Part shown: one piece after another, positions 14,749 through 20,305 of the stretch | How positions within the stretch are numbered: the first letter of the stretch is position 1 | Layout of the letters: every line of letters starts with the position of its first letter | DNA from: Natrinema zhouii | GTDB lineage: Archaea; Halobacteriota; Halobacteria; Halobacteriales; Natrialbaceae | Direction: 5' to 3' | Length of the DNA: 64,000 nucleotides | NCBI RefSeq assembly: GCF_013456555.2 | Contig: NZ_CP059154.1 | Span: 558,001-622,000 of the forward strand | Program-made: the position numbers and the translations under genes | The notes under the pieces: generated by a model | Told to the model about the DNA's origin: nothing | What the model saw: the letters and a program-made list of their open reading frames with translations, nothing else | Databases searched by the model: none

Positions 14749-17501
<2,753 letters not shown>

Positions 17502-17520
17502 AGACGAACTTTTGCTCTGC

Positions 17521-17700
17521 GGGCGCGGCGTAGCCGCGCCCTCGGCAAAATCTTCAAAAGAGCGCTTTGCGCTCTTTTGGACATCGCGGGATCTTCGATC
17601 CCGCTCAGCTTCGATGAAAAGCACTCCTCCCTCCCCTCGCGCGGCAAGCCGCGCTCCGGGTCGGTCGTCGCCCGTTCGAGCGTCCGCAGAGCGGACGCTC
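17521..17700. repeat. array of five perfect mini-hairpins between gyrB and gyrA
   Basis: Five perfect inverted repeats with 2-3 base loops follow one another: 17521-17541 (9-bp arms, loop gta), 17555-17579 (11-bp, loop ttt), 17586-17604 (8-bp, loop ttc), 17639-17654 (7-bp, loop aa) and 17678-17700 (10-bp, loop aga). Arm sequences differ from one another, so this is a repeated structure rather than a repeated sequence. The second ends in a short T run and could help terminate gyrB transcription. Confidence 0.85.
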
Positions 17701-17723
17701 TCACGGATGCAGTGCTGGTCACA

Positions 17724-17732
17724 GATATAATG
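17724..17732 (+). promoter_or_regulatory. TATA box of gyrA
   Basis: The element gatataatg is centred 26 bases before the gyrA ATG at 17753, exactly the spacing of a leaderless haloarchaeal transcript. It follows the hairpin array and suggests that gyrA is transcribed on its own, at least in part. Confidence 0.6.
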
Positions 17733-17752
17733 GAAGCAACTGAAATGAAGAC

Positions 17753-20305
17753 ATGAGTTCAGAAGTACCCGATCCGACGGACGTCGAGGCACGGTCAGTC
17801 GAAAACGTCCGCATCGAAAACGAGATGGAGCAGAGTTACATCGACTACGCGATGAGCGTCATTGCCGGGCGCGCCCTCCCCGACGTCCGCGACGGGCTCA
17901 AGCCCGTCCACCGGCGCATCCTCTACGCGATGCACGAGATGGGCGTCTCCTCCGGGAGCAGCCACCGAAAGTCCTCCTCGATCGTCGGGGAGACGATGGG
18001 TGACTACCACCCCCACGGCGACAGCGCGATCTACGACACCCTGGTCCGGTTGGCCCAGGACTTCTCGATGCGCTATCCGCTGGTCGACGGCCAGGGGAAC
18101 TTCGGCTCGATGGACGGCGACCCGGCCGCCGCGCCCCGATACACTGAGGCGCGGATGGCCCCCGTCGCCGAGGAGTTGCTCGAGGATATCGACAAGGACA
18201 CGGTCGACTTCTCGCCGAACTACGACGACCGCCTCCGGGAACCCGACGTGTTGCCGGCGGCGTTCCCGAATCTCCTCGTGAACGGCTCCTCGGGGATCGC
18301 AGTTGGGATGTCGACGAACATCCCACCCCACAATCTGGGCGAAATCATCGACGCGACGATCGAGTTGATCGATAACCCCGATTCGACCGTCGATGACCTG
18401 ATGAATCACGTGAAGGGGCCGGACTTCCCGACGGGCGCGAACATCGTCGGCCGGGACGCCATCTACTCGGCGTACAAGACCGGCCGCGGTCGCATCCGGG
18501 TCCGCGCCGAGTTCGAGGTCGAGGAGTGGAAGAACAATCGCGAGCGGATCGTCATCACCGAACTCCCCTATCAGGCCAACAAGGCCCGCCTCGTCGAGCG
18601 CATCGCCGAGGACGTCAACGAGGGCGAGATCGAGGGCATCTCCGACCTGCGCGACGAGTCCGACCGTAACGGCGTCCGCGTCGTTGTCGAACTCAAACGC
18701 GGCGCGAACGCGGAGGTCGTCGAGAACAAACTGCTCGAGAATCACCTCGAGCGAACCTTCGGCGTCATCAACCTCGCGCTGGTCGACGGCCAGCCTCGCG
18801 TGCTCTCGCTCAAGGAGACCCTGGCGGAGTACATCTCCCACCGACGCGAGGTCGTCCGGCGGCGCAGCGAGTACGATCTCGAGGAGGCCGAGGACCGAGC
18901 GCACATCCTCGAGGGTCGGCTAACGGCCGTCGAGAACGCCGAGAACGTCGTCGAACTGATCCGGAACAGCGAGGACCGATCGGCCGCGAAAGCGGCGCTG
19001 CAGGAGGCCTACGACTTCTCCGAGGAGCAGGCGACCCACATCGTCCGGATGCAACTCGGCAGCCTCACCTCGATGGAGGCCGCCGAGATCGAAGACGAGT
19101 ACGAGGAGGTTCAGGCCGAAATCGAACGCCTGACCGCGATCCTCGAGAGCGAGTCGGAACTGCTCTCGGTCATTAAAGAAGAACTCCGCGAGATCAAAGA
19201 CGAGTACGACGACGACCGCCGCACCTCGATCGTCGAGGACCAGGGCACGGTCACGCACGAGGATCTCATCCCGGAAGAGGAGGTGTTCGTCGTCATGACC
19301 GAGGACGATTACGTCAAGCGGATGCCGATCGACGGCTTCGACCCCCAGGGTCGAGGCGGCAAGGGCATCATCGGTGCGGACGTCAAGGAGGACGACCGCG
19401 TCACGACGGTCTTCCGGGCCAACACCCACGACTACCTGCTCTGCTTTACGAATCAGGGCGAAGTCTACCGGCTCAAGACCTACGAGATTCCGGAGATGGG
19501 CCGGACCGCGCGTGGGAAATCGGCGGTCAACATCCTCGATCTCGACCCCGGCGAGGACATCACGGCCATCGTCGACACCGACGCCTTCGGCGACGACGAG
19601 TTCGTGACGATGGTCACCAGACACGGCTACGTCAAGCGCACCGCCGGCGAGGAGTTCGATAACATCCTTTCGACGGGGATCATCGCCGCCGACCTCGAGG
19701 ACGGCGACGAACTCGTCGACGTCGACGTGACGGACGGCTCGAAGGATCTCGTGATCGCGACCGAGGGCGGCATGACGATCCGCTTCGACGAAAACGAGGT
19801 GCGCGCGATGGGGCGGAACGCCCGCGGTGTCAACGGCATCAAACTCCAGGCGGACGACGCCGTTGCGGGTCTGGTCGCGACCGACGAACGCGACGAACAG
19901 GCGCTGCTGACGGTCACGGAGAACGGGTACGGCAAACGAACGCTGCTCTCCGAGTACCGCACGCAGTCCCGGTACGGCAAGGGGTTGATTGACATTAAGA
20001 CGGGCGAGCGCAACGGACCCGTCACGGCCGTCAAGGCGGTCGACGCGGACGATCAGCTCGTGATGATGAGCGAGCGCGGCCAGATCGTCCGGACGCGAGT
20101 CGACGAAATCTCGAGCGTCGGGCGAAACACGATGGGCGTGATCGTGATGGAAGTCGAGGACGGCGACGCGGTCGCCAGCGTCGACGTGATCCCGGCATCG
20201 GCGGCCGCCGACGCGGACGATGCGGACGAAACGATCGATGCTGCTGACGCAACCGACACTGCTGACGCAGCTGACACCGGCGACGCAGCGGACGAATCGA
20301 ACTGA
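17753..20305 (+). CDS. gyrA: DNA gyrase subunit A
   Basis: This is the DNA-cleaving subunit of gyrase, 850 residues. The catalytic tyrosine is Tyr130 in [10 protein letters not shown]. The region equivalent to the quinolone-resistance determinant, [10 protein letters not shown], has Ser91 and Asp95 at the sensitive positions. Six beta-pinwheel repeats form the C-terminal half; the GyrA box reads QGRGGKG (532-538) instead of the bacterial QRRGGKG. The last 35 residues are a low-complexity Ala/Asp/Thr tail. The gene follows gyrB but is separated from it by 251 bases holding five hairpins and its own TATA box. With GyrB it controls genome supercoiling. Confidence 0.98.

Follow-up and report, generated by a model that had tools for sequence, protein, structure and literature searches.

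The five perfect hairpins that lie in a row between gyrB and gyrA are one copy of a dispersed haloarchaeal repeat, for which a search of the literature found no account and which is apparently undescribed so far. We put at about 0.6 the probability that the array is a copy of an element marking gene ends, perhaps a bidirectional T-tract terminator or an insulator, whose minihairpins would turn over at the DNA level; this reading is drawn from comparison of sequences.

The hairpin array in the gyrB-gyrA spacer

Positions are those of the window, the 64,000-nt stretch of Natrinema zhouii DNA that was analysed, and all features described lie on its forward strand. The spacer between the gyrB stop (17501) and the gyrA start (17753) is 251 nt long (17502-17752), and the five perfect inverted repeats that the initial annotation had placed in it (arm length 7-11 bp, loop length 2-3 nt) were all recovered where it had located them. 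Its statement that this symmetry far exceeds expectation also held, as 4763 of 5000 dinucleotide shuffles of the spacer contained no such hairpin, 233 contained one, 4 contained two, and none contained three or more. Away from the gyr cluster, at most two occur in any 251 nt of the window, and the window-wide count of 21, with 16 outside the array, compares with 12-25 in shuffles, so that the remainder of the 64 kb is at chance level. Folding of the spacer RNA, one of the checks proposed at the outset, gave z = -5.4 relative to shuffles with RNA parameters and z = -5.7 with DNA parameters.

The whole element, a gyr-type copy, extends from 17505 to 17716 and begins 3 nt past the gyrB stop codon. 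Stem P1 has as its left arm TTTTGC (17510-17515), almost invariant in P1 alignments and with its T-tract 8 nt past the stop, which pairs with the right arm GCAAAA (17545-17550), assigned from this pairing and the P1 alignment. Hairpin 1 (GGGCGCGGC-GTA-GCCGCGCCC, 17521-17541, 9 bp) is the tip of P1, is supported by P1 covariation and has a loop of the C-GNA-G type. Within the outer P1 stem lies an inserted block (17551-17608) comprising hairpin 2 (CAAAAGAGCGC-TTT-GCGCTCTTTTG, 17555-17579, 11 bp) and hairpin 3 (GCGGGATC-TTC-GATCCCGC, 17586-17604, 8 bp), whose loop reads GAA on the opposite strand, and CGAA at 17505-17508 pairs with TTCG at 17610-17613 around it. The block is evident from minimal copies that lack it and from several others that share its frame; further copies carry extra hairpins nested inside it. 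Downstream follow the conserved core AAAAGCACTCCTCCCTCCCC (17617-17636), hairpin 4 or P3 (GCGCGGC-AA-GCCGCGC, 17639-17654, 7 bp), and a conserved GGTCGGTCGTCG(G)CCCG stretch (17659-17674) in which the window copy is one G short when compared with other copies. Hairpin 5 or P4 (GAGCGTCCGC-AGA-GCGGACGCTC, 17678-17700, 10 bp) is common to several gyr-type copies, and GGATGCAGTGCT (17705-17716) forms the 3' end of the gyr-type copy, where AGTGCT (17711-17716) can pair with AGCACT (17620-17625); in one other copy (L102) this closing stem, GCACT/AGTGC, is replaced by GCGCT/AGCGC.

The array is therefore a portion of a larger structure in which the TTTTGC/GCAAAA, CGAA/TTCG and AGCACT/AGTGCT pairings enclose the hairpins. 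All five hairpins have a C-G closing pair, and two have a GNA loop on one strand. The array had been described as repeated structure without repeated sequence, which is accurate for the hairpin arms, all different, but not for the unpaired stretches between them, which are repeated sequence common to other copies of the element. A TATA-like ATATAA is present about 27 nt upstream of the gyrA start (window 17724-17753); as it is missing from the other element-bearing gyr spacers that we read, a gyrA promoter of its own behind the element is not claimed.

A dispersed repeat behind stop codons

With the spacer as query, a DNA search identified 17 places in the own genome, and the best partial match to the whole window element was 84% identical over query positions 3-177. 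We recovered 24 matches in this genome with a covariance model composed of P1 and the core (cut-off E<0.01), 23 of them on the main chromosome contig, which holds 71% of the assembled sequence (binomial probability about 0.003, or 0.002 when calculated for 24 of 25), and 32 matches in a genome of another family (G058), in which the copies within each of two pairs, 173106/173475 and 2059030/2059459, are oriented towards one another. The R1 model matched the window copy at 17505-17570 with 44 bits. The own genome contains 22 core motifs and no instance of the control pattern; with one mismatch tolerated, the core AAAAGCACTCCTCCYTCC was detected in 122 of 391 haloarchaeal genomes, representing 36 of 86 genera, and the reversed control pattern in none. 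The frame shared across copies is CGAA.TTTTGC-NCTGC-[hairpin]-TCGGCAAAA-..TTCGATNAAAAGCACTCCTCCCTCC-[hairpin]-TCGGTCGTCGGCCCGCTCG-[hairpin]-, with the TTTT..AAAA stem of P1, AAAAGCACTCCTC and GTCGTCGGCC as its conserved parts and with hairpins that vary from copy to copy. Most copies outside the gyr locus (L119-L139) have a second conserved part, GCCTGCCCTYCCCCGGGTCGCG-[hairpin]-CGCTCCCGGCCAC, about 100-150 nt past the core.

Placement was assessed for the 87 copies preceded, at a distance of no more than 150 nt, by the end of an ORF of 100 codons or more. In 78 of these the TTTT of P1 starts 3-12 nt past the stop codon, mostly at 5 or 8 nt, a spacing common to this genome, its genus and family f2, and the element has the orientation of the upstream gene. 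These upstream genes, named by eye from sequence, include gyrB, two thermosome subunits, TFS, an AAA ATPase and others, and three copies outside the family, read by eye, follow tRNA genes (L158, L175, L176). Two megaplasmid copies (L398 and L399) are flanked by divergent genes instead of following a stop codon; the two (1450-1620 in each) are similar minimal copies from two genera with a nearly identical right flank, GCACACTTCTCCGCCTGTACTGATCG. The initial annotation had held similar arrays at many random spacers without conservation of the arms to speak against its reading, which applies in half: arrays are indeed many and their arm sequences unconserved, but the sites are not random.

We then surveyed the orthologous genes of eight own copies in six relatives, 48 sites in all. 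Read by eye, 37 of these carry the element, 4 a second subtype, 1 a hybrid and 2 a degenerate copy, and 4 have none; a clean empty site was sought at the element-less sites and not found, the downstream sequence there being unrelated. The second subtype (CCGACCTTTTTT..GCGCAAAAAATCTCGACCAAAAAAGGCCGCTCGCTC, without the AAAAGCAC core) follows the stop codon in L273, L274, L279 and L291, which are sites of the first subtype in other species, and in L285 an inverted P1 tip (TTTTGCCGAG..GCAGAGCAAAA) is located after the stop codon beside a subtype-2 element.

This distribution bears on the possibility that the repeat is a non-autonomous mobile family, similar to PATEs or REPs, that inserts behind stop codons by chance and has no host function. 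Its copies are dispersed and patchy at gyrB-gyrA, some contain nested cassettes with terminal inverted repeats, and megaplasmid copies exist. We nevertheless regard this as an improbable explanation, given that 37 of the 48 orthologous sites are shared rather than strain-specific, that the genome's secondary replicons are nearly without copies (23 of 24 on the main chromosome), that no clean empty site was found, and that phage records searched with the element returned no match. Among plasmid records, haloarchaeal megaplasmids matched in part, and many of these matches covered nothing but a neighbouring amidohydrolase gene within the query. No useful similarity to the genome's own IS605-type transposons was seen: the six loci compared by BLAST with element copies gave only matches of 21-37 nt (E 0.003). 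PATEs and SMR-A of Haloquadratum are, like the window element, haloarchaeal, non-coding and palindrome-rich (PMC3119063). The window element differs from both in its constant position after stop codons, its occurrence at orthologous genes and its hypervariable internal hairpins, and from the IS605-derived PATEs (PMC3119063) in having no useful similarity to the local IS605-type loci. Bacterial REPs and BIMEs, extragenic palindromes of which a part lies near stop codons, also resemble the gene-end element (PMC3733652, PMC12306157); REPs, however, are 20-40 bp long with a conserved sequence, mostly with a GTAG or CGTC tag (PMC3733652, PMC12306157), whereas the palindromes of the gene-end element differ in every copy and the frame alone is conserved. 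No conserved 20-40 bp palindrome in high copy was present in the own genome, where all 20 readable P1 tips are distinct.

Exchange and pairing of the hairpins

Between species, the perfect minihairpins that lie between the frame parts have been swapped as blocks. The P1 tip was identical in 2 of the 106 ortholog pairs with a readable tip, and the 300 nt of coding DNA beside these pairs were >80% identical, mostly 88-97%; hairpin 1 differs even next to coding DNA with 94-98% identity. At the L120 gene, for which the coding DNA of two genomes (G019 and G020) is 98% identical, P3 and the right-hand hairpins are the same, and the P1 tip differs together with its supporting base pair, as does P4. 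A repeat whose position after a given gene persists, yet whose hairpins are exchanged between species with neighbour genes approximately 95% identical, is unusual. Concerted evolution within genomes was considered and rejected, since identity of P1 tips was as rare within genomes (2/401) as between them (4/824).

Some copies also contain a small cassette, of which we identified 16 distinct units of 58-64 bp with the ends TCGTTCG..CGAACCA and with GTGATGACGA between two variable hairpins (L126, L129, L134, L193, L300, L403, L413, L417 and others); the window copy is without it. Both orientations of the cassette occur. Every unit sits at G^C and, where it lies outside P1, usually follows C-GNA-G immediately; target duplication is absent. 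These insertion sites point to an activity recognising such hairpins, and suggest that minihairpins of the element type may serve the cassette as targets. SMR-A of Haloquadratum likewise has inverted terminal repeats, no target duplication and insertion into palindromes (PMC3119063), and, as judged from the description of SMR-A, the cassette is about half as long (approximately 110 bp for SMR-A). At the centre of L416, a relative of the cassette lies in frame inside an ORF read as NAD-dependent DNA ligase.

Compensatory changes in the arms, for which the initial annotation had proposed to look, are abundant: 21 aligned P1 stems (420 cells) contain 37 both-side changes and 1 one-side change, a covariation above all 500 shuffles and all slid controls, and the coordinated double changes include flips from G-C to C-G. 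Mismatched pairs within hairpins numbered 39 G.T, 54 A.C and 179 others, with no excess of G.T (P=0.95), in a count of 470 hairpins from 196 copies that pools some chance hairpins and in which the copies are not independent. When P1 tips were counted more crudely, without regard to length and with imperfect tips mis-registered, the result was 30 G.T and 11 A.C; a tRNA control, too small to carry weight by itself, gave 3 G.T and 0 A.C in 120 pairs. Distinct triloop hairpins with arms of 7 bp or longer numbered 214. Of these, 207 (97%) have a C-G closing pair, compared with 17 of 43 in a coding control from the gyrA region, and 146 (68%) have a GNA loop or the complementary TNC, compared with 9 of 43. 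The loops are strand-symmetric (GAA 32/TTC 30, GGA 12/TCC 14, GTA 11/TAC 10). GNA loops on G-C stems form extraordinarily stable DNA minihairpins (PMC4686876), with which the haloarchaeal hairpins have the C-GNA-G triloop in common; those minihairpins are known from synthetic DNA and aptamers (PMC4686876), while the enrichment reported here is in a natural repeat family. Because wobble pairs are not in excess, the loops are strand-symmetric and the loop type is that of GNA minihairpins, it is strongly suggested that DNA, single-stranded or extruded, is the form in which the hairpins fold and undergo copying or flipping.

The same measurements speak to whether the element acts as a structured RNA in the 3' untranslated region, through processing, stability or an influence on the termination of translation like that of REPs. 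The constant position just past stop codons, the directional frame and the strong fold are what such an RNA would show, and E. coli REPs within 15 nt of a stop codon are reported to stall ribosomes (PMC12306157). The P1 covariation is also of the kind expected for structured RNA, but the transcribed strand shows no tolerance of G-U pairs: there is no wobble excess on the gene strand, one-side changes are almost nil, and the strand-symmetric loops are DNA-type triloops rather than RNA tetraloops. An Rfam search with the window region and 14 other copies also returned nothing useful. We consider an RNA of this type unlikely, and the wobble count likewise disfavours the earlier suggestion of sense-RNA processing or gyrase sensing.

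The initial annotation had also raised template-switch mutation, which would leave the hairpins as a neutral scar of an event repeatedly producing perfect palindromes. The perfect arms, the coordinated double changes with their G-C to C-G flips, the reverse-complement loops and the inverted P1 tip of L285 agree with this, and the strand-symmetric loops, the missing wobble pairs and the block swaps favour a DNA-level process of some kind. Template switching alone gives no account of the conserved frame, the fixed spacing from the stop codon or the occurrence behind the same genes in several species, and as a full explanation we find it quite unlikely.

Candidate role and the gyrase locus

A bidirectional terminator or insulator appears the most likely role of the element, based on its placement at gene ends, the T-tracts on both strands and the use of T-stretches as an intergenic termination signal in Haloferax volcanii (PMC7237163). 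The T-stretch terminators of that species consist of a T-tract in the intergenic region past a gene, sometimes with a hairpin (PMC7237163), and the arrangement here is similar. The T-tract of the element, a candidate terminator, differs in its place a few nucleotides past the stop and in being one arm, the left, of a stem. It is possible that the element ends transcription of gyrB. A scan of 17000-18200 for terminators of the bacterial type (a stem followed by a T-run) gave no hits, and an essential terminator is argued against by the element's absence from gyrB-gyrA in most relatives and by copy numbers that range from 0 to 27 within one genus.

The frame sits immediately past stop codons, or past tRNA genes in a few copies, and is oriented with the gene. 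In the mechanism that we propose, the hairpins between its parts would form, and be copied or flipped, as DNA, with the minihairpins serving as targets for the 58-64 bp hairpin-carrying cassette. The element would punctuate gene ends, most likely through its T-tracts on both strands, which would provide termination in both directions, and the hairpins may be either a topological insulator or tolerated passengers. A broader and distinctly tentative proposal is that haloarchaeal gene ends could be punctuated by hypervariable DNA minihairpins that are extruded or single-stranded, selected for the GNA fold and not for sequence, and continually renewed by flipping and through a mini-cassette that seeks out hairpins, with the frame and the stop distance fixed. 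Integron attC sites, DNA hairpins that keep their structure but not their sequence and that follow a stop codon closely, resemble the gene-end element in both respects, although the genes that precede the element are core chromosomal genes. The copies of the repeat provide many natural replicates for the question of whether DNA hairpins form in living archaea, for which the enrichment of GNA loops would be a sequence signature of folding in vivo. Should the element prove to terminate or insulate transcription, current T-tract models would leave out a widespread archaeal gene-end device.

Bacterial BIMEs have a known connection with gyrase and with supercoiling. A supercoiling-sensitive regulatory design between the two gyrase genes had seemed attractive in the initial annotation. 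The comparison with relatives that it had called for does not bear this out, since just 10 of the 28 other members of the genus have the element between gyrB and gyrA, the remainder having a spacer of 7-21 nt, and the same element follows thermosome, TFS and AAA-ATPase genes. On a GyrA tree its presence requires 13 changes, at least 9 of them forced by well supported branches, and is no better clustered than shuffled labels. A gyrase- or supercoiling-sensing device specific to gyrBA is thus very unlikely, despite the position of the array between both gyrase genes and a 3' hairpin and AGCACT/AGTGCT closing stem common to gyr-type copies of several genera, given this patchy presence and the many unrelated genes followed by the element. 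The gyrB-gyrA element is instead a spacer allele that comes and goes. Element-bearing and short gyr spacers differ over their entire length, even between near neighbours (L010 and L092), which suggests that the alleles may have been exchanged through the flanking genes.
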